This document shows, one piece after another, positions 16,519 through 30,698 of a DNA stretch of 34,389 nt. How positions within the stretch are numbered: position 1 is the stretch's first letter; each line of letters opens with the position of its first letter. Source of the stretch: an uncultured Spartobacteria bacterium (lineage in GTDB: Bacteria > Verrucomicrobiota > Verrucomicrobiia > Chthoniobacterales > Chthoniobacteraceae); contig CAIYUV010000272.1 in NCBI GenBank assembly GCA_903929475.1, positions 1 to 34,389 on the forward strand, read 5' to 3'. The translations under genes and the position numbers were made by a program. The notes under the pieces were generated by a model. The model was not told where the DNA came from. It did no database searches and saw only the letters and a list, made by a program, of their open reading frames with translations.

Positions 16519-17226
16519 TCAGCCGCCCAGATATGCTTCGCGCACCTTCGGATTTTCGCGAAGCGCCTCCGCAGTGTCCTGGAGCAGAATGCGCCCGGTC
16601 TCCAGCACATAACCGTAATTACTCACCTCCAGCGCGAGATTCGCGTTTTGCTCCACGAGGAGGATGGTCAGCTTCAACTCGCGGTTAATCGCCACGATTT
16701 GCTCGAAAATGGTCTTTGTCAGCAGCGGCGCAATGCCGAGTGACGGCTCGTCAAGCAACAGGAGTTTCGGTTTACTCATCAGCGCGCGACCGATGGCTAG
16801 CATCTGCTGTTCGCCGCCACTGAGCGTGCCCGCAGTCTGTTTCACGCGCTCCTTCAAGCGCGGGAATACGCCAAACACATAATCGAGATCCTTCGCGATG
16901 CCCGCCTTGTCCCTGCGCAAATACGCGCCCATGCGCAGATTTTCGAGCACGCTGAGATTGGCGAAAATCATCCGTCCCTCCGGCGATTGCGCGATGCCTC
17001 GCGCGACGATTTGATGCGCAGGGAGACCGGAAATTTCCGCGCCGTCGTAGGAAATGCGTCCGCTCTTCGGCTTCACAAGTCCGCTAATCGTGCGCAGCGT
17101 CGTGGTCTTCCCCGCACCATTGCCGCCCACGAGCGTGACGATGGTCCCCTGCTCCACGCGCAACGAAATGCCATGCAGCGCTGTGATGCCGCCATAGGCG
17201 ACTGTCAGTTCGTGCAACTCAAGCAT
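16519..17226 (-). CDS. livF: Branched-chain amino acid ABC transporter ATPase LivF
   Basis: The 235-residue protein is one of two ATPases that drive uptake of leucine, isoleucine and valine or related substrates. It has Walker A (GGNGAGKTT, 34-42), the LivF-type segment RGIAQSPEGRMIFANLSVLENL, the signature LSGGEQQMLAIGRAL and Walker B LLLLDEPSLGIAP. The SPEGR segment and the short length distinguish it from LivG. It overlaps livG by eight bases, and a strong AAGGAGG site lies six bases before its ATG. It is the last gene of the livKHMGF operon. Confidence 0.93.
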   Translation of the reverse strand: MLELHELTVAYGGITALHGISLRVEQGTIVTLVGGNGAGKTTTLRTISGLVKPKSGRISYDGAEISGLPAHQIVARGIAQSPEGRMIFANLSVLENLRMGAYLRRDKAGIAKDLDYVFGVFPRLKERVKQTAGTLSGGEQQMLAIGRALMSKPKLLLLDEPSLGIAPLLTKTIFEQIVAINRELKLTILLVEQNANLALEVSNYGYVLETGRILLQDTAEALRENPKVREAYLGG

Positions 17227-17998
17227 CGTCCGCCTCCTTTCCCAAATAGGCCGCGATCACCTTGGGATTCGCCTGAATTTCCGCAGGCGTTCCCTCGGCA
17301 ATCTTAATTCCATAATCGAGCACCGCGATGCGCTCGCAGATGCCCATGACGACCTTCATGTCGTGCTCGACCAGCAGCACCGCGAGTCCGAATTTTTCCT
17401 GCACGAAGCGGATCAGCTTCATCAACTCCACCTTCTCCGTCGGGTTCATCCCGGCGGCGGGTTCGTCGAGCAGCAGCAGCTTCGGCTTCGTCGCAAGCGC
17501 GCGGACGATTTCCAAGCGGCGCTGGTCGCCGTAGGGGAGCGACTTCGCCATTTCGTCGCGCTGCTCGTGCAGGCCGAATATTTCCAGCAGTTCCATCACC
17601 TGCCGCTCCACCTCGGCCTCGCCGTGACGGAAGCCGCGCATCCGCACGAGCGCGTCGCGGATGCCGTGCGGGCGGTGGACCTGCACGGCGGTGCGCACGT
17701 TGTCGAAGACGTTCATCGAGCCGAACAGCCGGATGTTTTGGAAAGTGCGCGCGACACCGCGACGCGCGAGCTGACTCGGTCGCGCGCCGATGGTGGGCTT
17801 GCCGTGGAAACGGATCGCGCCGTCGCTCGGCTGGTAGATGCCGGTGATCAAATTGAACGCCGTCGTCTTGCCCGCGCCGTTCGGGCCGATGAGGCCGACG
17901 AGTTCGCCCTCGCCGATGCGCAGATCGAATTCCGACACGGCGGTGAGGCCGCCGAAGCGGATCGTCACGCGGTCGAGTTGGAGAAGCGGCGCGTCCAT
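17219..17998 (-). CDS. livG: Branched-chain amino acid ABC transporter ATPase LivG
   Basis: The 259-residue ATPase partners LivF. It has Walker A GPNGAGKTT, the LivG-specific GVARTFQNIRLFGSMNVFDNV segment, the motif LPYGDQRRLEIVRAL in place of the standard LSGGQ signature (typical for LivG), Walker B LLLLDEPAAGMNP and the switch region LVEHDMKVVMGICERI. The end (EGTPAEIQANPKVIAAYLG) also matches the family. It begins directly after the livM stop on the minus strand and overlaps livF by eight bases, indicating one polycistronic transcript. Confidence 0.94.
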   Translation of the reverse strand: MDAPLLQLDRVTIRFGGLTAVSEFDLRIGEGELVGLIGPNGAGKTTAFNLITGIYQPSDGAIRFHGKPTIGARPSQLARRGVARTFQNIRLFGSMNVFDNVRTAVQVHRPHGIRDALVRMRGFRHGEAEVERQVMELLEIFGLHEQRDEMAKSLPYGDQRRLEIVRALATKPKLLLLDEPAAGMNPTEKVELMKLIRFVQEKFGLAVLLVEHDMKVVMGICERIAVLDYGIKIAEGTPAEIQANPKVIAAYLGKEADDA

Positions 17999-19153
17999 TT
18001 AGAGTTGGGCTTTCCGTTTCCCACCAAAGGCAAAAAGGCCCTGCGGGCGCAGAAGCATCATCGCGATCAAAAGTCCGGCGTAGAGCAGCGGGCGGTATTC
18101 TTTCAGCGCGCTGAGCTTGTAGTTTGCGACCGTGAGCAGGAACGCCGCGACGACGACACCGCGCGTGCTGCCCATGCCGCCGAGGATGACCATCGCCACG
18201 ATCTCGATGCTGCGGTTGAAGTCGTAGCCCTTGGGATTGATCGTCGTGTTGAAGTGCGCATCCAACCCGCCCGCGATGCCGGCGAAGAACGCGCCAATGA
18301 CGAACGCGACGACTTTGTAGCGCGTGGTGTTCACGCCCATCGCCTCGGCAGCGACTTCGTCGTCGCTCACGGCGAGAAAGCCGCGCCCGTAGGTGCTGTG
18401 GACGAGCGTGGAGACGACGTAGATCGCCAGCGCCGCCGCTGCGAACACCCAGCCGAGATCGGTCGTGAGCGGGATTTGATCGAGGCCGAGAGCGCCGCCG
18501 AGCGCGGGAATGTTGCGCAGAATCACGGCGATGATTTGCCCGAAGCCGAGCGTGACGATGGCGAGGTAATCGCCGCGCAGCCGCAGCGACGGAGCGCCGA
18601 CGAGGAAGCCCGCGAGCGCCGCCATCGCTCCTCCTGCTAACAACACAAAGCCGAACGCCGCTGCACCCAGTATTCGCACCATCCAATCTCGGGTCATGAA
18701 ATGCAAACCGACCATTACAGCTACGCCAGCAATCACCAAACTGCTCGACACAAACACCAACACCCTGACTGAGGGGGAAAGCCGCCAACGCCCGGTTACA
18801 AATCGCGCTATATATGCACCAATCAACGCTGCAACACATGCAAAGCCAATCAGCAATCCCCAAATTAACATCTGCCCCCGATCACCAATGATAAGCTGAA
18901 GGAAAGTTGGCTTGGTATGCATCGTCAGCGCCGCCGCCGTGTATGCGCCCACGGCCATGAAGCCCGCGTGTCCGAGCGAGAACTGGCCCGTGTAGCCGTT
19001 GATTAAATTCAAGCTCACCGCGAGGACGATGTTGATTCCCGCAACGACCAGCATGTCCGCGTAGTAGAGATCAATGCTGTCGTGAAAGTGCGACGCGACA
19101 AAGCTGCCGAGCAGCGCAAGCAGGAGCCAGAGACGTGTGCGACCGAAGAGCAT
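17999..19153 (-). CDS. livM: Branched-chain amino acid ABC transporter permease LivM, with extra membrane block
   Basis: The 384-residue permease forms the translocation pore with LivH. Family motifs are SLNLINGYTGQFSLGHAGFMAVGAY near residue 55-75, LRLRGDYLAIVTLGFGQIIAV, and GFLAVSDDEVAAEAMGVNTTRYK. Between GAYTAAAL (about residue 76) and LRLRGDY (about 175) lies an extra stretch of roughly 80-90 residues with additional hydrophobic segments, where most LivM proteins have about 20-30. The DNA of this stretch (about 18,640-18,910) is near 50% GC by hand count, against roughly 60-70% in flanking lines. The start is the ATG at 19153, which overlaps the livH stop (TGATG). The frame continues upstream but runs inside livH. 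Confidence 0.92.
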   Translation of the reverse strand: MLFGRTRLWLLLALLGSFVASHFHDSIDLYYADMLVVAGINIVLAVSLNLINGYTGQFSLGHAGFMAVGAYTAAALTMHTKPTFLQLIIGDRGQMLIWGLLIGFACVAALIGAYIARFVTGRWRLSPSVRVLVFVSSSLVIAGVAVMVGLHFMTRDWMVRILGAAAFGFVLLAGGAMAALAGFLVGAPSLRLRGDYLAIVTLGFGQIIAVILRNIPALGGALGLDQIPLTTDLGWVFAAAALAIYVVSTLVHSTYGRGFLAVSDDEVAAEAMGVNTTRYKVVAFVIGAFFAGIAGGLDAHFNTTINPKGYDFNRSIEIVAMVILGGMGSTRGVVVAAFLLTVANYKLSALKEYRPLLYAGLLIAMMLLRPQGLFAFGGKRKAQL

Positions 19154-20043
19154 CAGACTTTCTCCCTCTGCATTTTGCCCAGCAGCCCCGCTGGGCGGAA
19201 GAGCAGGATTACGATCAGCAGCGTGAACGAAATCGCCTCCGTCCACGTGCTCCACGGGCTGCCTTTTACGAAAGCCTCGATGACACCGATGAGCAGTCCG
19301 CCGAGCGCCGCGCCGGGCAAATTGCCGATGCCGCCGACGACCGCCGCGACAAACGCCGTGATGCCCGGCAGCACGCCGAGGCTCGGCTCGATCTTCGGAA
19401 ACTTGAACGCCCACAGCACGCCCGCCACCGCCGCGAGCGCGGAGCCGAGGCCGAAGGTGAAACTGATGATGCGCCCTTGGTTCACGCCCATCAGCGCCGC
19501 GGCCTGCGGATTAAAAGACACTGCGCGCATCGCCATCCCAAGCCGTGTGCGATGCACAATGAATTGCAGCAGCACGATGAGCAGCACCGTGACCACGAGC
19601 ACCGTCACGTCCTTGCTCGAAATGACCACGCCGCCCACATTGAACGTCGCCGCCGGGAACACCATCGGGAACGATTTTACGTTCGGGCCGAAAATCATCC
19701 GCACCACATTTTGCAGCAACATCGAGACGCCGATGGCCGTGATCAAAACGGTGAGCTTCGAGCGTTCTCGCAGCGGGCGGTAGGCGAGGAACTCAATCGT
19801 GATCCCCAGCGCCGCGCACAGCACCATAGCAAAGAGCACCGCCGCCATTCCGCTGAGGAACGTCCCTTCCGTGAACCGCTGCCCAGCGACCATCCCCGCG
19901 TATGCGCCGACCATGAAGACGTCGCTGTGCGCGAAATTGATGAACCGCAGCACACCATACACGAGCGTGTAGCCAATCGCGATCAATGCATACAGCGAGC
20001 CGACGGAGAGGCCGTTGATGAGCTGCTGAAAGAAGGTAATCAT
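19153..20043 (-). CDS. livH: Branched-chain amino acid ABC transporter permease LivH
   Basis: The 296-residue integral membrane permease starts with QQLINGLSVGSLYALIAIGYTLVYGVLRFINFAHSD-type sequence characteristic of LivH, has the LTVLITAIGVSMLLQN and RTRLGMAMRAVSFNPQAAALM segments, and ends with the typical LLFRPAGLLGK. Eight or so hydrophobic segments are visible. It lies 22 bases after livK and shares one base with livM. Length agrees with the family. It forms the transport channel with LivM, powered by LivF and LivG. Confidence 0.94.
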   Translation of the reverse strand: MITFFQQLINGLSVGSLYALIAIGYTLVYGVLRFINFAHSDVFMVGAYAGMVAGQRFTEGTFLSGMAAVLFAMVLCAALGITIEFLAYRPLRERSKLTVLITAIGVSMLLQNVVRMIFGPNVKSFPMVFPAATFNVGGVVISSKDVTVLVVTVLLIVLLQFIVHRTRLGMAMRAVSFNPQAAALMGVNQGRIISFTFGLGSALAAVAGVLWAFKFPKIEPSLGVLPGITAFVAAVVGGIGNLPGAALGGLLIGVIEAFVKGSPWSTWTEAISFTLLIVILLFRPAGLLGKMQREKV

Positions 20044-20065
20044 CGCCCGGCGATCCCGTTCCGGC

Positions 20066-21217
20066 TTACGGGTTCACCGTCTCGCGGTAGGCGAATTTGC
20101 CTGCCTTGATCTCGATCATCACCGCCGATTTCCGCGCGTTGCGCTCGGCGTCCAGCGTCATCTTTCCCGTCACGCCCTCGTAGTCCTTCGTCGCCGCGAT
20201 GGCGTCGCGCACCTTCGATCCGTCCGTCGTGCCCGCGCGCTTGATCGCATCCGCCAGCACCATCGCGCTGTCGTAGCCGAGCGCGCCCATCGCGTCGGGT
20301 TTCGCGCCGAAACGCTTCGTGTATTTCTCCACGAACTCCTTCGCCTTCGCGCCGTCCTGATCCGGCGAGAAGTGCGTCGAGAAAACGCAGCCATTGAGCG
20401 TGCCGTTCGCGCCCTGGAGAAGCTCCGGCGCTTCCCATCCATCGCCGCCGAAGAGCGGCACCGTGATGCCAAGTTCACGCGCCTGCTGCGCGATGAGATT
20501 CGCCGGGCCGTAATAGACCGGCAGGAAAATCGCTTCCGGGTTCGTGCCCTTGATCGCCGTGAGCTGCGCCTTGTAGTCCTTTTCGCCGGACGCGCACTTT
20601 TGCTCCGCCACGATCTGCCCGCCGCTCGCGAGATACTTGTCTTTGAAATACTGCGTGAGCCCCACGCTATACGCCTGCGAGACATCCGTGATGATCGCCA
20701 CGTGCTTCGCCTTGAGACTCTCCAGCGCGAACTTCGAGAGCACATCGCCGCCCTGAAATTGATCCGTGAAGCAAACGCGGAAAATGTAGTCGCCGCTCTG
20801 CGTCACCTTCGGGTTCGTCGAGGAGGGCGAGATTTGGGGAATCTTCATCTGCTGGCAGATGGAGGCCATTTCCAGCGAGCGCGAGGAGGCGACTTCGCCG
20901 AGCAGCGCCACAACTTTGCTCTGCGAAATAAGCTTCTTCGTCGCCGTCGCAGACTCGCCTTTCTTCGACTGATTATCCTCCGTCACGAGCTTGAGTTTTT
21001 TGCCGAGCAACCCGCCCGCCGCGTTCAGCTCCTCGATGGCGAGCAGCGTGCCGTTGTGCGAGGAATTGCCGAACGAAGCCTCATCGCCCGTCAGCGAAGC
21101 GACCTCGCCCACGATAATATCGCCTGCCGTGTTCGCATCCTTGCAGCCCACAAGGCTGAAAGCGGCGGCAGTTGTAAGTAAAAGAAGTGTGCTTTTCATA
21201 AATGGAGTTCGGCTCAT
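20066..21217 (-). CDS. livK: Branched-chain amino acid ABC transporter substrate-binding lipoprotein
   Basis: The 383-residue protein is the periplasmic-binding component, here lipid-anchored: the signal ends in SLVGC with Cys25. The mature part is a Leu/Ile/Val-binding (type I periplasmic) fold, with IIVGEVASLTGDEASFGNS, ELNAAGGLLGKKLKLVTEDNQ, ALLGEVASSRSLEMASICQ, PQISPSSTNPKVTQ and MGALGYDSAMVLADAIKRAG. An internal ATG at 21199 (residue 7) is an equally good start, since it also leaves a complete lipoprotein signal. It is the first gene of the operon. Substrate specificity cannot be told from sequence; the family also binds amides, urea and aromatic compounds. Confidence 0.93.
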   Translation of the reverse strand: MSRTPFMKSTLLLLTTAAAFSLVGCKDANTAGDIIVGEVASLTGDEASFGNSSHNGTLLAIEELNAAGGLLGKKLKLVTEDNQSKKGESATATKKLISQSKVVALLGEVASSRSLEMASICQQMKIPQISPSSTNPKVTQSGDYIFRVCFTDQFQGGDVLSKFALESLKAKHVAIITDVSQAYSVGLTQYFKDKYLASGGQIVAEQKCASGEKDYKAQLTAIKGTNPEAIFLPVYYGPANLIAQQARELGITVPLFGGDGWEAPELLQGANGTLNGCVFSTHFSPDQDGAKAKEFVEKYTKRFGAKPDAMGALGYDSAMVLADAIKRAGTTDGSKVRDAIAATKDYEGVTGKMTLDAERNARKSAVMIEIKAGKFAYRETVNP

Positions 21218-21302: not shown

Positions 21303-22250
21303 TCACCGGCCCGCAGCACACGCCCACGAGACGACGAGCAGCAGCACCGCGCCGACGCCAGATGCGATCTGCCTGCGCGCCGAGGCACCGCCTTTCCAGC
21401 CCGCTGCGAAAAATCCTGCGCCCAGCAGCGCCCCTGCAAACAGCCCGAAAAGATGCGCCAGCACATCCACATTCCCTGCATCGAGAATCGTCGTGCCGTC
21501 TGCCTTCGCTCCTCCTCCGCCATAGATTGCGAGAAAGGCGAAGCCTGCGCCGATGGGGACAATGATCCGCCATCCGGACTGCGGACCGCGATGCGCAAGC
21601 CGTGCGAAAATTTCAGCGCCAGCGAGCAGGCCCAGCCCCGCGAACAGCGCAGTGGACGAACCGAGGCTCAGATGTGGACGCGAAAGGTGCGCGAGAACAT
21701 TCAGCCCGTTACCGAGCGCACCGCCGAGCACAATGCCGAGCAACCCGCATCCCACTCCGAATCGCCACAGCACAAACGCAAACACAAACACGGCGAGGGA
21801 GAGATTCGAGACGAGATGCTCCGTGTTTCCATGCAGCGTGAGCGCGGTGAAAGTGCGCCACCACTCGCCGTGGCGGATTGCCGTATCATCCGCCACTCCA
21901 CGCCCGATGAATTCACGCGCCAGCCCCGTCTGCACGCGGTAACAGGCTGCCATCACAAGCAGCAGCGTCATCAACGCAAACTTCGGAATTTTCAGCGGCT
22001 CCAACTCCCGCAGCGCAGGACGCGCACGCTCGTCCGATTCAAATTCTGCGAGCGCAGCAACCACACGCTCACGCGATGCCTCCTCCACACGCAGCGCATA
22101 TTCGCGCCCCTCTCTCACGACCCAGTGCGGCAATTCCATCGCTGCAACGACCAGTCCACGCTCTCGCGCATCCGCGAGATGCGGATAGCGGCCCACTTCA
22201 GCGAGGGGTATCGGTGGCGGCTCATCTTCAGGCACGGCGCGATTGCCCAT
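21303..22250 (-). CDS. Rhomboid-family intramembrane serine protease
   Basis: The product (315 residues from the ATG at 22250) has a soluble N-terminal part of about 90 residues, of the kind seen in many bacterial rhomboids (VVREGREYALRVEEASRERVVAAL). About seven membrane segments follow. Catalytic features are present: the HGEWWRTFTALTLHGNTEHLVSN region with His140 and Asn149, the GxS motif GSSTALFA with Ser199, and His266 in DVLAHLFGL. An in-frame GTG at 22346 would extend it by 32 residues into the end of the upstream PEP-CTERM gene; the start is unsettled. It is on the same strand 45 bases after that gene, so the two may be co-transcribed. Confidence 0.88.
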   Translation of the reverse strand: MGNRAVPEDEPPPIPLAEVGRYPHLADARERGLVVAAMELPHWVVREGREYALRVEEASRERVVAALAEFESDERARPALRELEPLKIPKFALMTLLLVMAACYRVQTGLAREFIGRGVADDTAIRHGEWWRTFTALTLHGNTEHLVSNLSLAVFVFAFVLWRFGVGCGLLGIVLGGALGNGLNVLAHLSRPHLSLGSSTALFAGLGLLAGAEIFARLAHRGPQSGWRIIVPIGAGFAFLAIYGGGGAKADGTTILDAGNVDVLAHLFGLFAGALLGAGFFAAGWKGGASARRQIASGVGAVLLLVVSWACAAGR

Positions 22251-22294
22251 TTCCCGCAGCCAGTTGTCAACCGCCGATTGCCGTTGCAGGATCT

Positions 22295-24994
22295 CTACAC
22301 AACCGTTGCGCGACGGCGGCGGCTCGCGAGCAGGCAGAGGCTGCACGAAACATAGAAAGCACCCGCAGGCTCGGGGACGACGGTGAGAACGACGTCGTTC
22401 CCGTCTCCACCATCGTAATCAATGCGAAACCCGGTGCCCGCAGCAGTGAAGGTCGTGCCGCCTGACAGCCCTTCAAAATTTCCATTCACCGGATTTGAAA
22501 GCGTCGAATTGATGATGATGGTGAATGTGTCACCCGCCGTCGGCGTGAAGCCATTGATGAGGGAAATGAGCAGATCACCGCCGATGGTAATACTGCCGTT
22601 GACTTTGACCTGATCAAAAGTTCCCGGTGCCGTGCCGCCGATTTCGATTTGCAAGACGGCGCCCGGCTCAAGATCAAGCACGCCTGCTTCCAAAGTTCCG
22701 GTAGCAATGCCCGGCGTTCCGGGGCTGAACACGCTGTTCGTCTCGAAAAAGATATTGTCCACCTGCGTGCCGGTCTGGCTGATGCCGCCGAATACACCGC
22801 CATTGCGGACAAGGACGCTGGTCGCGAGGCCGCCAGAGACGAAGAGATGCCCGCCATCCACACCAACGGGCTCCACGATTAAATTGACCGGCTTCGTGAT
22901 GAAAAGACGGCCCGCACCGGTGACGAGGAGGCCGTTCGACACGCCGGTGCCCGTGGATAAATCGAGTCCGCCTGAAAAAGTAATGTTCACGCCGGACTCG
23001 ACTGTGATCCTGTGCGTGTAGTTTGCACCGGCGGCTTTAAAGAGCGTGACCGGCGCGGTGAAATCCATGTTGTTGCCCGCGAAATCCGCACCGACTCCGA
23101 TTTGCCCGGCACCGATGGACATGGATGTGGAAATCGCGCTCGCACCGGTGAGCGGCGCGGCGGCGGAGAGCGTCCCTGCATTGAAACGGAACTGGCCATT
23201 CGTGCCGGTGCCGCCGGGACCGAGGGCATTGTTGTCGTGAATGATCAACGTGCCGCCGTTCAGCGCAGCGGCAGGTGTGGCTCCGGTGCTGCCGAGTTGG
23301 ACGCCGCCAATGAGCGCCGTGTTGTTGCCACGGAGATCCAGTGTGCCGTCACCGAGTTTCAGCAACCGCCCGTTCACAGTGGCGCTGAGCAGATTCGCGG
23401 ACAAGATGAGATCAACCGGCGCAAGGCCATCCGCCACGATGAAGGTGCGCTGCGAAGAACCAAGCTGGAGCGCGCCATTGATTGTCGCAGTCCCCACAGT
23501 GTAGCTCGTGGTCACGTTGCCGTTCAAAGCCAGCACGTCCGCAGTCGCACCGACCTCCGAGGGTTGCGTGAAAATCATCCCGGCAACCGCAGGAGAGCTG
23601 CCGGTAAATGTGACAGTGCCCGTGTTGGTGAAAGTGAGTGTGTTCACATTCACGACGCCCGATATGACGAGTTGTGTGGATGGTGAAACATCGAGGCTTC
23701 CCGTGCCGCTGAGAGTGCGCGTTGCCGCAAGGGCAACATCAGCCGTGGTGCGCAGCGTGCCACCGCCAAGCGTGACCGCCCCCGCTGCATCACCGAGCTG
23801 GTTGTCGTTGCTGATTTCCACCACACCCTGCGTGATCGTCGTGCCGCCGCTGTAGCTGTTCACGCCGCCAAGCACCAATTTGCCGGCACCCGTTTTGCGA
23901 AGTCCCGTGCTTCCGCTGAGAGACGCACTGATCGTCGCCGTGTCTGTGGCCCGCGGCACTTTGATCGTGGGTGTGGCACCGGTGAGTGTGAGCGTGCCGC
24001 CCGACAGCGTATAGCCGTTCACATCGAACTCGATGTCGGCATCGGTCGTCGCACCGGCACCAATGGTCACAATCGTAGGAGAACCGTTTCCGGTGAAATA
24101 GATCTTTCCACCAGCGGGCAGGGATTGCGTGGCACCGGTGCCATCCGCCAGCGGATTAAACGTGAGCGATGTCGCGTCCCAAATCCCCGCACCTCCAACG
24201 CCCGCGGCGCTTCCGTTCGCGTCCCAGTAAAAAATATTCGAAATGGCCCCGCCTCCATTGATCGTAATGTTGAAGTTATCTAGGGACAGACCCGCGTCGC
24301 TGCCAGTCTCATCAACATCCTGCCAGCGCAGAAAAAAACTTTCCCCCGGCGCGACGGTGATGCCGCTAAAGGTGAAAGTGCGCACGACTTGGTTCGCGGC
24401 AGAATTTCCATCCAGCGCGCCGTTGCTTGCCACAGGCACCGGCCCCACCAAATCAAGCGCGCTCGCCGCACTAAAACCGGATGAACTCGTCAGAAACGTA
24501 GCCGCAGTAGCTCCGGTCAACGTCGAAGCCCATGACGAGGCCGCTGTATTCACAGAGACGGTAGAGGAGCGCCAGTTTTCCTGCGTGAAGGAAATTGTGA
24601 TCGTGCTGATGTTCGTGCTCGCGCTCAAATTTTTAAGCTCAAAGCCGAAACCCATGATGTTTGAAGCCGCCGCAAGAACTCCCAATGCGCGATCCGTTGA
24701 AGCCGCAGCTCCGTAGCTGTAAATGCCCCCGGTGGTCGCAGTGCCTGCACTGGCGGCGAGGTTGGTAGCGGAGGCTCCACTGCCGGCGACCTTCGTGCCG
24801 AGAAACTGTGTGCCGCTGATCACCGTCTGCGTGCCGATTGTGGCGGAGAAAACCCCGGTGACCGTGGATGTAGGCATCCCATCGAAAGTTTCCGTGATGC
24901 CGGAGTTCGTGCCGTCATAGATGTAGGCAGCCGATGCAGTGCACACACACACAACCCCGATGAGGCTGATAAGAATGACACGGGGCATTATCAT
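22295..24994 (-). CDS. PEP-CTERM protein with autotransporter-associated beta-strand repeats
   Basis: The 899-residue surface protein has an N-terminal signal peptide (ending TASA, about residue 22). It has a Gly/Ala/Thr/Ser-rich body with at least one clear autotransporter-associated beta-strand repeat, around LRKTGAGKLVLGGVNSYSGG and continuing to about residue 430. The C-terminus is a PEP-CTERM sorting signal: VPEP, a short hydrophobic segment containing two cysteines, then RRRR. Such proteins are exported and their tail is removed by an exosortase, none of which is encoded here. The body is probably a long parallel beta-helix. ATG codons at 24994 and 24988 are both possible, and a TTG at 24997 is less so. 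A weak AAAGGA lies about 14 bases upstream. It ends with TAG. Confidence 0.85.
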   Translation of the reverse strand: MIMPRVILISLIGVVCVCTASAAYIYDGTNSGITETFDGMPTSTVTGVFSATIGTQTVISGTQFLGTKVAGSGASATNLAASAGTATTGGIYSYGAAASTDRALGVLAAASNIMGFGFELKNLSASTNISTITISFTQENWRSSTVSVNTAASSWASTLTGATAATFLTSSSGFSAASALDLVGPVPVASNGALDGNSAANQVVRTFTFSGITVAPGESFFLRWQDVDETGSDAGLSLDNFNITINGGGAISNIFYWDANGSAAGVGGAGIWDATSLTFNPLADGTGATQSLPAGGKIYFTGNGSPTIVTIGAGATTDADIEFDVNGYTLSGGTLTLTGATPTIKVPRATDTATISASLSGSTGLRKTGAGKLVLGGVNSYSGGTTITQGVVEISNDNQLGDAAGAVTLGGGTLRTTADVALAATRTLSGTGSLDVSPSTQLVISGVVNVNTLTFTNTGTVTFTGSSPAVAGMIFTQPSEVGATADVLALNGNVTTSYTVGTATINGALQLGSSQRTFIVADGLAPVDLILSANLLSATVNGRLLKLGDGTLDLRGNNTALIGGVQLGSTGATPAAALNGGTLIIHDNNALGPGGTGTNGQFRFNAGTLSAAAPLTGASAISTSMSIGAGQIGVGADFAGNNMDFTAPVTLFKAAGANYTHRITVESGVNITFSGGLDLSTGTGVSNGLLVTGAGRLFITKPVNLIVEPVGVDGGHLFVSGGLATSVLVRNGGVFGGISQTGTQVDNIFFETNSVFSPGTPGIATGTLEAGVLDLEPGAVLQIEIGGTAPGTFDQVKVNGSITIGGDLLISLINGFTPTAGDTFTIIINSTLSNPVNGNFEGLSGGTTFTAAGTGFRIDYDGGDGNDVVLTVVPEPAGAFYVSCSLCLLASRRRRATVV

Positions 24995-25086
24995 CAAACG
25001 AAAATGAATCCTTTTTCCAACAACTCAAGCAGACGTAGCATAAAAATGCGCGTGTCCGCGAGGGCGCCAGATTTGTGGCCGTGCTC

Positions 25087-25286: not shown

Positions 25287-25973
25287 TCAGTTCCCGCCGC
25301 CCTGGGCCACGATATTGCCGCCGCCTTGGGCTACGATGCTGCCACCGTCATTGGAAATAAGGTGGCCGGAGCTAACGCTTAATATCCCTGCTGCGTTCTG
25401 TCCTAGAAAGCTCCCGCCATCTTGTCCAATGAGCGCGTTCGGAGAGAGGACATTTCCACCACCTTGGGCCACGATATTGCCGCCACCCTGAGCAACGATA
25501 TTTCCACCACCCTGGGCGACAATATTGCCGCCACCTTGAGCCACGATATTTGCAGCAATGGCTGAGATTGCGATGGACGCCCCTCCAACGTGGTTGCTGA
25601 GTGCTGAAAAACCGGCGCCATCCTGACCGATCAGATTTCCAGCGCCTGAGGCTACGATATTTCCACCACCTTGAGCCACGATACTGGCGAAATGGTCAAG
25701 GATATAGCTGGCCGTCTGCGTGCCGAGGCCGGCGGTATTTGTTATGGAGATGGCGTTGCCTGCACCGCTCGCAACGATGTTTCCTCCACCTTGGGCCACG
25801 ATATTGCCGCCGCCCTGAGCGACGATATTTCCACCGCCTTGGGCCACGATTTCTGCGCCCAAGACAAAGACTTGCTCTCTACCTAGTTGGAACACAGATA
25901 CACCGTTTGTGAGGTGGACGCCGTCGCTAGCGCAGACTGCTCTGACTTGGGAAGTGCCGGTGAGTGCATTCAC
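25287..25973 (-). CDS. IVAQGGGN octapeptide-repeat ORF (possible C-terminal part of the upstream ORFs)
   Basis: The 228-codon ORF encodes a protein dominated by the octapeptide IVAQGGGN: ten exact copies in runs of three, one, four and two, plus two IVASGAGN and looser forms such as LIGQDGAG. Short non-repeat linkers separate the runs, and the protein ends exactly with two repeats and a TGA. No signal peptide is visible at the N-terminus. The first codon (GTG at 25973) follows directly after the TAA of the preceding ORF, in the same frame. A GGAG lies 16 bases upstream, too far for a standard ribosome binding site. It may therefore be the C-terminal domain of a larger protein. I do not recognise a named family; a repetitive beta-structure with Asn and Gly turns is inferred. 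Confidence 0.7.
   Translation of the reverse strand: MNALTGTSQVRAVCASDGVHLTNGVSVFQLGREQVFVLGAEIVAQGGGNIVAQGGGNIVAQGGGNIVASGAGNAISITNTAGLGTQTASYILDHFASIVAQGGGNIVASGAGNLIGQDGAGFSALSNHVGGASIAISAIAANIVAQGGGNIVAQGGGNIVAQGGGNIVAQGGGNVLSPNALIGQDGGSFLGQNAAGILSVSSGHLISNDGGSIVAQGGGNIVAQGGGN
25290..25850 (-). repeat. 24-bp coding repeat array (IVAQGGGN)
   Basis: Four clusters of 24-base units lie at about 25,775-25,850, 25,640-25,683, 25,455-25,555 and 25,290-25,337. Copies differ mostly at third codon positions of Gly, Ala, Gln, Val and Ile codons (for example CAG or CAA for Gln) while the peptide is kept. This points to selection on the protein rather than recent slippage. Confidence 0.85.
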
Positions 25974-25976
25974 TTA
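25974..25976 (-). other. In-frame TAA between the DUF11 ORF and the octapeptide-repeat ORF
   Basis: The TAA is followed directly by GTG in the same frame. Without it, DUF11 and repeat sequence would be one continuous reading frame. Confidence 0.95.
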
Positions 25977-28900
25977 ATCAGTGAGTGCACTCCGATTGGT
26001 CGCATTGATTGGGATGCCTAGGTGCTCGCAGAAGCAGCCGAGGACTTCCCATTTCGAGGTATCGAAAGGTTTACCGATCACCCATGTGCCAATGGGGTTC
26101 GGGGCGAGCACGGCTGAGGCGGCGTTATCAGCGCTGATGTAGAGTGAGTGATCTTTCACGCAGTTATCAGCAAAGTCGCCGCTGATCTTTACTTTCAAAA
26201 GGATTGCGCCAGCAGAGTGCGCGGGCAGTGAGGCAAACTTCCATGTGATAATATCCGGCCCGGAACCTGTGACTTTCACCTGCGCCGCGCTGCGTGGCTT
26301 GGTGGTGTAGGGTGTGAGGCTCGGCGTAGGAACTACAGTGGTGCCATTGAAGGCGTTGATGACTCCATTCGTAGCGGAGACGAACTGCGTGAAGTAGGGA
26401 ATCTGCATTCCCACGGTCACGTTCGTTGCGTCTGAGTCGCCGGAATTCGCGAAGGCGATGGTGTAGGTGAACTCGCCGCCTTTCTGCACGGTATATGGAG
26501 AGCTACGTGCGAGGGAAAGAGTCGGATCAACCGAATTTCTTACGAGCACAGGCTGCTTCTCAGTGGCAGTGGATGAGGCTGTGAGGACTGGTGTGCTAAG
26601 ATGAGTGCGCCCACGGAGAGCCAGAAGCGTTGGAAACACAGGCGTTCCTTTGATGACGGGGTCGGTTTCAAAAAATATAAACTTCTTTTCTGCCAGCGCA
26701 GGATCCAGCGGTGTGTTCACCTGGAGATTGATGCGCAGCTTGCGGGTTTCCTGCGCAGCGCTCGTGCCGATGGTGAGGCGCGCAGCACTATTATTGACGC
26801 TCGTCAGAATCGTTCCTCCTGCGCCGTCGGTGAAGGCGGGCGCATTCTGCCCGGAGGTAAGCAGAGTGGTGCCGATTGGAATGACGAGATCCATATAGCA
26901 ATTCGCCGCGTCAATGTCGCCGTTCTGCGTGTAGGTGAAATCGAAGGGCACGATGTCACCGGGCTGCGCGCTAAAAGCCCCCTTTGTATAATGAATATCC
27001 CACGAAACGTCCGATACGACTTTCACCAAAGTGTCGTCCGGGGTTGCGGGGACAACGCGAAGGAGGTCGGCGCAAGTGATGTAGGCCCCCTGCTCCGGAT
27101 CGCTTCGACGAAGCTTGGGATTAAATCCCCCCAGCGCATGGATGAAAGTAGCCGGCTTGCCACGGGGAGCCGGAGCAGCCGTGGTGCCGACGGTGTATCG
27201 GATCACACCGTATTCACCAGCAGGCAGCGGCGTGAGGTTATCAAACTGACTCAACCGAATATCCATGGAATGCACCGAGGTGATGTTCGAGCCGGTCACG
27301 TTCGGGATCACATTCCCAGCAGCATCGTAATACGTGAACTGCTGCGCATTCATTGGCGCGGGCGCAGCACCATTCACGGACTGCGAGAAAAAACCGAGCA
27401 ACTGCGCACCTTCTGGGATGACATCGTGCAACACGATGTGGTGTGCGGTGGCGTCTCCACTATTGATGTAGAGGATTTCGTAATCAAAGCCGTGATTCTG
27501 CACCGCAGTCGTGACTTCGCCGAGGCCGGCGATTTGCTGGGAACCGTTGCCGTGGACGATGGAGTTGTTCAAATCGTGTGAACCCACCGCAATTTTTCCG
27601 AGGCCGACGACTGGCTTCGTCACGGGAGGCGCGGCGGTCACTGTGCTGGTGAGCCCGCTGGTGCTGGGAGGATTTCCGTAAAGTGCGGAGATGCCGCCGG
27701 AGATTGTGAAGTCATAGTCGTCATTGACGATCTGTGTGGGCTGCGCGGTGATGCTCGCGTTGGGGTCTGCGATGTCATAGAGCACGCGGACGGTGAATTT
27801 CACCTCCACTTGAGATTTCGCGGCAATCAATCCGATAGGCCACTTCACCTCCTCCGCGATCAAGTGGGCGTCCACCAGTTTATTGACCGTGTCGGTATCG
27901 AGGATGGAGATGTCCACCTCGGCTCCCTTTTTCTTGCCGAGGAATTTTGCATCGGCGAGCAGCACATAAACCAGAGCTGGGTTGGATACTGCGCTGGGGT
28001 TTGGCAGAACGGTATTGGTCGAGTTCCCGTTCGCATCCGGCACATAAACACTGTCGAGGATTGTCCCGAGCGGGATACGGTCGCGCACCACGACTTGATT
28101 CACGGAATTCGCCGAAGTGTTTTTCGCAGTGAGAGTGTAGGTGATGAGATCGCCGCCCTTCACAGTGTCAGACAGACTGGGCCTCGATACGGAAAGTTGG
28201 ATCGGACCGAGGATTTCTGTGTCGAAGTGCTCGCGCAGAAGTGGTGCCGCTTTGATGCCCTGCGCAGGAGCCGAAAGCGTATGCCCTTTCATCGTGAGGA
28301 TAGTGCCGAAGCCGTTCGGGTGTTTTTTTTGCTCCTTTGCTGTGAACATCGAGGCGATGTCTATTTGCACGAGCAGATCTTCGGTGAATGTCGTCTTTGG
28401 GAGCGATGTGAAATTCCAAACAATTGCCGTAGTCACGCCTTTCTTGTCCCGCACTTGCGTAAACGGCCCGTGGATATTCGTGGCATTGAGAAATGTCGTG
28501 TGTTTTGGAATCGGCACCGTGAGCACGGCGGGTGTCGCCGCGCCGTCGTTGGTCACATTCGCCGCGCTGAAGTGATACGTGATTACTTCGTTCTCGTGCG
28601 CAGTATCACCCGAAGCGTCACTATCCGAAATAGCGCTCACATTCAGCGCAAGCTCCGGCCCGCCGATGACGGCGAAGGGCTGCGTGGGCGCGCTGATTTG
28701 ATCGGGATATCCGTCCGCCTTGGTCACGGCACGGAAGTAGAGCTTGTTGCAAACCAACGGGTGCCGATCCACCACACTCCACATCGTGCCCTTGCCATGA
28801 ACGAGCGTCTTGTAATCCAGCCATATCGTCTTATTCGGCGAGAATTGCAATTTCACGGTGGCGTTCGTCGCATCGGCAGGCAAAGGGCGGGTGATTGAGA

Positions 28901-28997
28901 AATTCCAGTCCGAGCCCGTGCGCGCGGCGATTTTCACGTCCTTTGCAATGTTACCCGGAATCGGTTTCACGAGATTCGTCGGCTTCACGAGAAGCAC
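25974..28997 (-). CDS. DUF11-repeat extracellular protein (probably continues the upstream ORF)
   Basis: The 1007-residue ORF contains about five DUF11-type (conserved repeat) immunoglobulin-like domains, starting near residues 112, 270, 500, 665 and 825. Each has the pattern of a Gly/Asp-rich turn, then ITYxxxxxN, then VxxxIPxxTxF, for example GGEFTYTIAFANSGDSDATNV. DUF11 domains occur in large exported surface proteins, yet this ORF has no signal peptide or lipobox. Its first possible start, the GTG at 28997, follows a weak AAAGG five bases upstream. The same frame is open upstream to the TAG at 29031, where the FG-GAP/Calx-beta ORF ends. Downstream it ends in TAA with the octapeptide ORF following in frame. 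It is best viewed as the middle part of one interrupted gene; independent internal translation is the alternative. Confidence 0.75.
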   Translation of the reverse strand: MLLVKPTNLVKPIPGNIAKDVKIAARTGSDWNFSITRPLPADATNATVKLQFSPNKTIWLDYKTLVHGKGTMWSVVDRHPLVCNKLYFRAVTKADGYPDQISAPTQPFAVIGGPELALNVSAISDSDASGDTAHENEVITYHFSAANVTNDGAATPAVLTVPIPKHTTFLNATNIHGPFTQVRDKKGVTTAIVWNFTSLPKTTFTEDLLVQIDIASMFTAKEQKKHPNGFGTILTMKGHTLSAPAQGIKAAPLLREHFDTEILGPIQLSVSRPSLSDTVKGGDLITYTLTAKNTSANSVNQVVVRDRIPLGTILDSVYVPDANGNSTNTVLPNPSAVSNPALVYVLLADAKFLGKKKGAEVDISILDTDTVNKLVDAHLIAEEVKWPIGLIAAKSQVEVKFTVRVLYDIADPNASITAQPTQIVNDDYDFTISGGISALYGNPPSTSGLTSTVTAAPPVTKPVVGLGKIAVGSHDLNNSIVHGNGSQQIAGLGEVTTAVQNHGFDYEILYINSGDATAHHIVLHDVIPEGAQLLGFFSQSVNGAAPAPMNAQQFTYYDAAGNVIPNVTGSNITSVHSMDIRLSQFDNLTPLPAGEYGVIRYTVGTTAAPAPRGKPATFIHALGGFNPKLRRSDPEQGAYITCADLLRVVPATPDDTLVKVVSDVSWDIHYTKGAFSAQPGDIVPFDFTYTQNGDIDAANCYMDLVIPIGTTLLTSGQNAPAFTDGAGGTILTSVNNSAARLTIGTSAAQETRKLRINLQVNTPLDPALAEKKFIFFETDPVIKGTPVFPTLLALRGRTHLSTPVLTASSTATEKQPVLVRNSVDPTLSLARSSPYTVQKGGEFTYTIAFANSGDSDATNVTVGMQIPYFTQFVSATNGVINAFNGTTVVPTPSLTPYTTKPRSAAQVKVTGSGPDIITWKFASLPAHSAGAILLKVKISGDFADNCVKDHSLYISADNAASAVLAPNPIGTWVIGKPFDTSKWEVLGCFCEHLGIPINATNRSALTD

Positions 28998-29030: not shown

Positions 29031-29033
29031 CTA
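29031..29033 (-). other. In-frame TAG between the FG-GAP/Calx-beta ORF and the DUF11 ORF
   Basis: The residues before the stop (ATAIVTI) and after it (DQQPAG) together resemble the last strand of a Calx-beta domain (VTIxD). The frame is open on both sides. Confidence 0.95.
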
Positions 29034-30698
29034 GATCGTCACAATCGCCGTGGCCTTCGGCGGCAGGTTCGCCGCATCTATTGGCTCCGCATCACCGATT
29101 GGATTTTGCAGAGTGAGGACGATCGTTTGCGCAGACTCGGAACTTTTTGCAGCACTTGCGACGATGTGGATATTCTTTTGATACTCGCCCGCCGCGAACA
29201 CGACTGCCTGTGACTGCTGCGGCGGATCGGTGATGCTGTAGTCAGAGTTCTTTACCTTCGATCCTGCCTGCACAGCCGATCCACCCACGGTAAAATAAAC
29301 CACCACCTGCCCGGTGCTGTCCGATCCACGCACCACACTCACATCCAGCGCTTCGCCCTCCGTCACGCTCAGCGTCGTCTGCGCAAACTCCACCTTCCGC
29401 CCCGTCGGCAACGTTGGCGTGCTATTGAGAAAAAGTGCGAACTGACTGTGCTGCGTCGAGCCGAAAATTGTGGAACTGGTGCCAATCAGCACATCGTTTT
29501 GCGTATCCCCGTTGAGATCGCCGACTGCGACACTTCCGTAGCTGATGAAGTCCGAGAGCACATTGTCCTGTCCCTCGATGGCAAGGTTTGCGCCTGCACC
29601 CGTCCATCGCGTGACGATGAAGCCGTCAAACCCATTCACCGAGATCGTCCCCGGCACTTCCACCGGCGTGATGATCTCCGCCAGTCCGTCGCCATTCAGA
29701 TCCGCCGCCTCCACCACGTTCGCACTGATGTTCTTGCCTCCATTCGCCGTAAAACCAAAGGCCTTCCCGTCGCCAAACGTCCCATTCCCGCCATTGTTGA
29801 GGTTCACCGAGAGGTAGAATGTGTTGTTAAGCGTTGCCGCGTCGTGAACGTAGCCCGTCACCACGAGGTCTGGAAAATGATCGCCATCCACATCCGCCAC
29901 GGCAATCGCATTTGGGCGAAAACCCGCCAGTGCTGTCGTCCCGTAGCTTGCTTCCGCCACGAGTGTTCCATCGCCTTTATTCAAAAGCACACTCGCCGTG
30001 GCTTGAGGAATCTTGCTGTTCACAAAAGCCACATCCGCTAGTCCATCTCCATCCACATCCATCGCCACGATGCGGGAGTAGGTCGAAACCCCGCTTGCCG
30101 CATACGCAACCGGCGTCCCAAATGTCCCCATCCCGTCATTCGGAATCCACACTATGCCTACGTCTCCGAAATTATCACCCACCACGATATCCTGACTGCC
30201 CGCCGCCGTAAGATCGCCAACCGCCACTTTTGTCGCGACTATCGTGCTCGCCGTAAGATCAATCGTGTGTGTCTTCGTGAAACTCCCGTTGTTCTGCCAA
30301 TCATACACCTGCACGGAGTTCCCTGCCGCGAAGACCAGTTCCGCCTTTCCATCGCCATCGAGATCACCCACTGCGATCCCTCGGTATTGGCTATTGCTCG
30401 TAGTGATCGTGAAGTTCACCACTGGACTGCGAAAACCGCCTGACCCATCGCCGAACTGCACTTCCACGTAGCCCGTCGTCGCATCCAAAACCGCTACATC
30501 CACATTGCCATCCTTGTCAAAATCCCCCGTCACCATGTTATCCACGCGATGAACGGTGCTTGGGTATTGTGGAGTGCTGAAAGTCGGCGCAGCAGCTTGG
30601 GCGAATGGTTGAAGCACCCAAGAGCAAAGGATGGTAAAAAAAGCAGCGGCACGAGCTGATAGACGCTGTGATGTGAAGAAACGAACGCGTGTTTTCAT
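29031..30698 (-). CDS. FG-GAP beta-propeller plus Calx-beta surface protein
   Basis: The 555-residue product is exported, with a long signal peptide ending AQAAA (about residue 37). Residues 50-420 contain seven Asp-rich FG-GAP/VCBS-type calcium loops (for example GDFDKDGNVDVAV at 58-70, GDLDGDGKAELVF, MDVDGDGLADVAF, ADLNGDGLAEIIT), one of them degenerate (GDLTAAGSQD). This predicts a seven-bladed propeller. Residues about 436-555 are a Calx-beta domain (VTEGEALDVSVVRG, then VVFAAGEYQKNIHIV). The ORF stops with TAG within the last strand of that domain. It is first in the block and the only ORF of the three with a signal peptide. No Shine-Dalgarno is visible. It probably functions in adhesion or at the cell surface, but its ligand is unknown. 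Confidence 0.82.
   Translation of the reverse strand: MKTRVRFFTSQRLSARAAAFFTILCSWVLQPFAQAAAPTFSTPQYPSTVHRVDNMVTGDFDKDGNVDVAVLDATTGYVEVQFGDGSGGFRSPVVNFTITTSNSQYRGIAVGDLDGDGKAELVFAAGNSVQVYDWQNNGSFTKTHTIDLTASTIVATKVAVGDLTAAGSQDIVVGDNFGDVGIVWIPNDGMGTFGTPVAYAASGVSTYSRIVAMDVDGDGLADVAFVNSKIPQATASVLLNKGDGTLVAEASYGTTALAGFRPNAIAVADVDGDHFPDLVVTGYVHDAATLNNTFYLSVNLNNGGNGTFGDGKAFGFTANGGKNISANVVEAADLNGDGLAEIITPVEVPGTISVNGFDGFIVTRWTGAGANLAIEGQDNVLSDFISYGSVAVGDLNGDTQNDVLIGTSSTIFGSTQHSQFALFLNSTPTLPTGRKVEFAQTTLSVTEGEALDVSVVRGSDSTGQVVVYFTVGGSAVQAGSKVKNSDYSITDPPQQSQAVVFAAGEYQKNIHIVASAAKSSESAQTIVLTLQNPIGDAEPIDAANLPPKATAIVTI

Follow-up and report, generated by a model that had tools for sequence, protein, structure and literature searches.

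We find that the 228 residues encoded on the minus strand at 25287-25973 of the window (the whole stretch of DNA analysed here, 34,389 nucleotides of contig CAIYUV010000272.1 from an uncultured Spartobacteria bacterium) contain an array of octapeptides that is constrained at the protein level, and that this array is the C-terminal tail of a larger gene, interrupted by two in-frame stop codons. The reading that we favour, at a probability of roughly 55%, is that the array is a modular octapeptide β-solenoid that gives secreted proteins a rod or an attachment segment outside the cell, and that its carrier in this genome was probably inactivated recently.

Translation of the minus-strand frame yields ten exact IVAQGGGN and two IVASGAGN units together with the looser octads LIGQDGAG, LIGQDGGS, FLGQNAAG and LISNDGGS, and the unit counts given in the original prediction thus hold. 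The units are arranged in the blocks listed in Table 1, the last of which directly abuts the stop codon TGA at 25287-25289 with no residues in between. Sequence similar to the 41 residues ahead of the array also precedes the arrays of Verrucomicrobial relatives, and an N-terminal cap is suggested for this stretch.

Table 1 Features of the carrier gene, the octad array and their surroundings (positions in the window)
Feature	Position	Strand	Basis
First gene segment: signal-peptide-like N-terminus, six FG-GAP stretches, Calx-beta; ends at TAG 29031-29033	29031-30698	-	Pfam
Second gene segment, same frame: four DUF11 stretches; ends at TAA 25974-25976	25974-28997	-	Pfam
Pre-array stretch of 41 residues, NG turn stretch VHLTNGVSVFQLGREQVFVLGAE	25851-25973	-	sequence
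Octad block 1: IVAQGGGN x3, IVASGAGN	25755-25850	-	
Interruption of 24 residues AISITNTAGLGTQTASYILDHFAS, a multiple of eight	25683-25754	-	
Octad block 2: IVAQGGGN, IVASGAGN, LIGQDGAG	25611-25682	-	
Interruption of 21 residues FSALSNHVGGASIAISAIAAN, out of register	25548-25610	-	
Octad block 3: IVAQGGGN x4	25452-25547	-	
Octad block 4: LIGQDGGS, FLGQNAAG, ILSVSSGH, LISNDGGS, IVAQGGGN x2	25290-25433	-	
PATR autotransporter-type repeat protein with PEP-CTERM-like end, directly downstream of the array	22295-24997	-	
Rhomboid-domain gene	21303-22346		
Branched-chain amino acid ABC transporter genes (ATPases, permeases, binding protein)	16519-21217	-	
21-bp tandem repeat, about 7.4 copies, consensus ACGGCGGAGTAACGTTATTGG, running off the contig end	34235-34389	+	

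Differences among the 12 strict units are not random with respect to codon position, amounting to 21, 41 and 285 at positions 1, 2 and 3, respectively, and pS/pN among the same units is 0.66/0.06; both the counts and the ratio are partly circular, since the strict units were chosen by their peptide. Synonymous sites are nearly saturated between copies while the peptide is constant. Between the window and its closest relative, genome G007, omega is 0.18 over the collinear array and 0.18 over the DUF11 part, and constraint has therefore lasted through most of the divergence of the two. The near-saturation of synonymous sites, the omega of 0.18 and the eight-residue register described below bear out the proposal that the array reflects selection on the protein rather than recent slippage.

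The register was counted in 80 proteins (the window and 79 ORFs among the pattern matches listed), not all of which are independent; in these, 46 of the 75 gaps that separate strict units have a length divisible by eight, as against about 9 expected (p = 3e-23). The octads inside the gaps fit a looser form, h-h-[AGS]-x-[GDN]-G-[GA]-[NSTG], where h is hydrophobic; the hydrophobic pair at unit positions 1-2 is conserved, and glycine accounts for about one third of the unit residues. Residue 4 is homogeneous within proteins (median 1.0 versus 0.30 between proteins), even though the median synonymous difference between copies of one protein is 0.52. Which residue occupies the position depends on the protein: A, Q, S, G, T and P all occur, with Ala commoner than Gln among the matches listed, and the array of G007 has Thr at nearly all sites where the window has Gln. 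A conserved Gln ladder, part of the Asn/Gln ladder originally envisaged, is thus not borne out. The uniformity within proteins fits either stacking of like residues or copies that were homogenised longer ago and then held by purifying selection. Whether copies have kept their positional identity since the split from G007, which would have meant Q/T replacement in parallel in each copy, was examined by position: pS was 0.567 for orthologous copies and 0.622 for shuffled copies (p = 0.17).

Scanning of genome contigs with a pattern of two tandem units returned at least 119 stretches, of which 80 were listed, giving the 79 ORFs. As labelled in their records, the matches listed come from about nine phyla, i.e., Verrucomicrobiota, Acidobacteriota, Pseudomonadota, Bacteroidota, Cyanobacteria, Chloroflexi, Actinomycetota, Gemmatimonadota and Planctomycetota, with Cyanobacteria represented by a single genome, RYN_339. 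The tandem pattern is patchy, being present in 7 of 40 genomes of the family to which the window belongs and in 2 of 288 in a sample of the phylum. Arrays usually comprise 2-11 octads, often just 3-5 closing off a folded domain, and are C-terminal in many proteins; their partners include ricin-type (ricin-B) lectin, DUF11, DUF4214, and NHL or other propellers. Of 56 array ORFs whose N-terminus is complete, 46 have a signal-peptide-like start, as assigned with a crude caller, compared with 70 of 290 other ORFs. In several RYN_339 lipoproteins the array comes after the lipid-anchor region. A phage or plasmid origin was considered and rejected, as the tandem pattern had no match in the viral contigs scanned and tblastn found nothing among phage and plasmid records.

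Two groups among these proteins are worth recording. The genome of Cyanobacteria bacterium RYN_339 (G342; L038 and other contigs) contains 112 tandem octad matches, and many of its arrays lie just after lipoprotein-like N-termini and ahead of propeller domains. A small secreted family with an LYNxGxWxxYxEL-like stretch (L063, L079, L097, L105, L107 from Hymenobacter, L045, L065, L051, L053 and L070) has relatives in Bacteroidota, Acidobacteriota and Gemmatimonadota; most members carry about four octads, and the C-terminal β-like end closes with a basic residue.

An AlphaFold model of the window array, built on a 22-sequence alignment, has a 4-residue strand every 8 residues (residues 42-45, 50-53, 58-61, 66-69, 74-77 and 143-146, 151-154, 159-162, 167-170) at a mean pLDDT of 51.9, with arrays at about 50-71, which renders the repetitive β structure put forward at the outset plausible at low confidence. 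A Hymenobacter protein whose array is flanked on either side was modelled as well; here the N-terminal flank is better predicted than the array itself. Judging by sequence, β-helix-like stretches adjoin the array in some Spartobacterial and filamentous-haemagglutinin-like loci (L068, L075, L093 and L077), in keeping with a solenoid. A β-solenoid rod is the likeliest structure; the low AlphaFold confidence and the lack of a significant structural match in the PDB count against it. An arrangement of two octads per coil was considered and is unsupported by the lengths of octad runs, 62 of which are even and 52 odd, with no clear preference for even numbers.

The array is a module of the looser octad form given above, carried on secreted proteins. 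We propose that residues 1-4 of each octad (I-V-A-Q) most likely form one short β strand followed by a tight glycine-rich turn (G-G-G-N). Consecutive octads would stack into a short, rigid β-solenoid, with ladders along it formed by the Asn that recurs at position 8 and by the residue 4 shared within a protein. Such a solenoid would probably provide a rod or an attachment segment outside the cell, at the C-terminus of lectin, DUF4214 and FG-GAP/DUF11 proteins, and in lipoproteins a spacer beside the lipid anchor. More tentatively, and at somewhat less than even odds, the arrays may together make up an unclassified octapeptide β-solenoid family in which the eight-residue register is strict and like residues stack in a ladder at position 4; secreted lectin, DUF4214, DUF11 and propeller proteins in about nine bacterial phyla would share it as a rod or for attachment at the cell surface, with a huge expansion in one Cyanobacteria-labelled genome. 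If the fold is real, a portable repeat of very short period on many unrelated secreted bacterial proteins has been missed by Pfam and NCBIfam, and its recognition would aid the annotation of many hypothetical surface proteins; likewise, the uniformity of residue 4 in each protein despite extensive synonymous change would make these arrays a natural case for testing whether solenoids stack like residues in ladders.

The low AlphaFold confidence and the high glycine content are also compatible with an unfolded, flexible linker or tail rich in glycine, of which the composition alone is kept. We consider this unlikely, given the strict eight-residue register across interruptions, the conserved hydrophobic positions 1-2, the sameness of residue 4 throughout a protein, and the frequent location of the array at the extreme C-terminus, where there is nothing beyond it to link.

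The window array matches no model in Pfam or NCBIfam, and its motif strings were not found in the openly accessible literature searched; to this extent, the initial view that the unit belongs to no named family stands. Curlin repeats contain a Q-x-G-x-G-N part within a unit of about 22 residues, and those of CsgA/CsgB resemble the array in having a strand followed by a Gly/Asn-rich turn and recurring Gln and Asn; however, the octad is an 8-residue unit on large multidomain proteins. The visual likeness of Q-G-G-G-N to the curlin part, the low-complexity Q/G/N composition and the strand periodicity of the AlphaFold model would suit a functional amyloid or polymerisation module, in which octads stack between molecules through Gln/Asn ladders in an extracellular matrix, as in curli or FapC. 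Our data do not lend support to a curli-type form of the amyloid-like stack that was first suggested, and a module of this kind appears improbable, slightly more so than the flexible tail: neither the curlin repeat (Curlin_rpt, PF07012) nor the CsgG secretion channel has a match in the genome, whereas the E. coli positive control for the former and four control genomes for the latter matched; moreover, Ala outnumbers Gln at position 4 among the matches listed, and the array often consists of 3-5 octads only, closing a folded domain. The RTX nonapeptide β-roll is alike in its short strand and glycine-rich turn, and in being tandem, often C-terminal and secreted, but its unit has 9 residues as compared with 8 in the array, the main octad is without the calcium-binding Asp, and RTX HemolysinCabind gave no Pfam match at E ≤ 1.

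The carrier gene can be followed in a single frame from ATG 30698 to TGA 25287 on the minus strand, 1,803 codons before the final stop when the two internal stops are counted; the TAG and the TAA listed in Table 1 are the only stops inside it. As the array ORF is in frame with the two ORFs upstream and parted from them by these codons only, it belongs, as its tail, to a larger gene that is interrupted, a point missed in the original prediction, and does not encode a free-standing 228-residue protein. The frame encodes, in order, a signal-peptide-like N-terminus, FG-GAP, Calx-beta, DUF11 and the octad array. DUF11 (78.6 bits, cut-off 24.6) and FG-GAP_3 (124.6 bits, cut-off 26.9) score above the curated Pfam cut-offs and Calx-beta (23.9 bits, cut-off 27) below; the carrier belongs with the DUF11/FG-GAP secreted surface proteins, and its octad tail is an extra module outside the Pfam models for DUF11, FG-GAP and Calx-beta. 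A comparable protein is encoded in one open frame in four more distant relatives (2082, 1844, 2671 and 1872 residues), with the array at or near the end; the 2671-residue relative appears to carry other N-terminal repeats in the place of FG-GAP.

At the sites of the two stops, G007 has GAG (Glu) for the TAG and TAC (Tyr) for the TAA, but its orthologue lacks 928 bp within the FG-GAP/Calx-beta part, which shifts the frame (L030, G007:C20, around 812-821); ten bases are shared at the junction of the deletion. The gene therefore looks recently inactivated in the lineage; recent, independent inactivation in the window and in G007 is the simplest reading, and the copy with its two nonsense codons in the source genome is probably a recently inactivated one. 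That the stops are read through or recoded, with all 1,803 residues of the protein still being produced, could be argued from their being in frame, each one base away from the sense codon of G007, and from the constraint still visible downstream of them. Recent loss accounts for that constraint as well, the other relatives keep an open frame, and G007 bears a different frame-breaking lesion, as decay would predict, so that readthrough has in our view a small probability, well below that of either the linker or the amyloid. The stops may also be an assembly error.

Two further readings of the array itself are less probable still. One is an ice-binding or water-organising solenoid, as in the bacterial ice nucleation protein or the ryegrass antifreeze protein. 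Foldseek of the array model against the PDB gave no match at E ≤ 0.001, which is not evidence of a new fold, and a PDB sequence search with the array gave nothing below E 0.1; the top two Foldseek rows are ice-binding proteins, with non-significant E-values of 2.4 and 2.8. The latter belongs to the Lolium perenne ice-binding protein 3ult, a plant protein with a short-repeat β-roll, which also ranks first by VIA-align (Z of 7.1 over 102 residues, rmsd 8.2); a Z under 8 may reflect only a common arrangement. The ice nucleation protein is itself a β-solenoid with a 16-residue coil of consensus AGYGSTQTAGEESSLT (PMC9418140), and its central domain resembles the array in being a tandem extracellular repeat of octad-related period with inward and outward ladders (PMC9418140). 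The array, in contrast, has a different consensus, short runs, and no TxT or Tyr ladder, its residue 4 varying among six residues, and the ice nucleation repeat had no Pfam match at E ≤ 1; ice binding is accordingly very improbable. The other reading, that the repeat is a neutral outcome of slippage or recent duplication, has the 24-bp tandem period of the array DNA in its favour and is scarcely credible in view of the near-saturated synonymous sites between copies with unchanged peptide and of the presence of the unit in many phyla with its eight-residue register retained.

Elsewhere in the window, the segment 22245-25178, which contains the PATR gene, is missing from the syntenic place in G007. 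The tandem repeat at the contig end (Table 1) would in one frame give a heptapeptide such as DGGVTLL.
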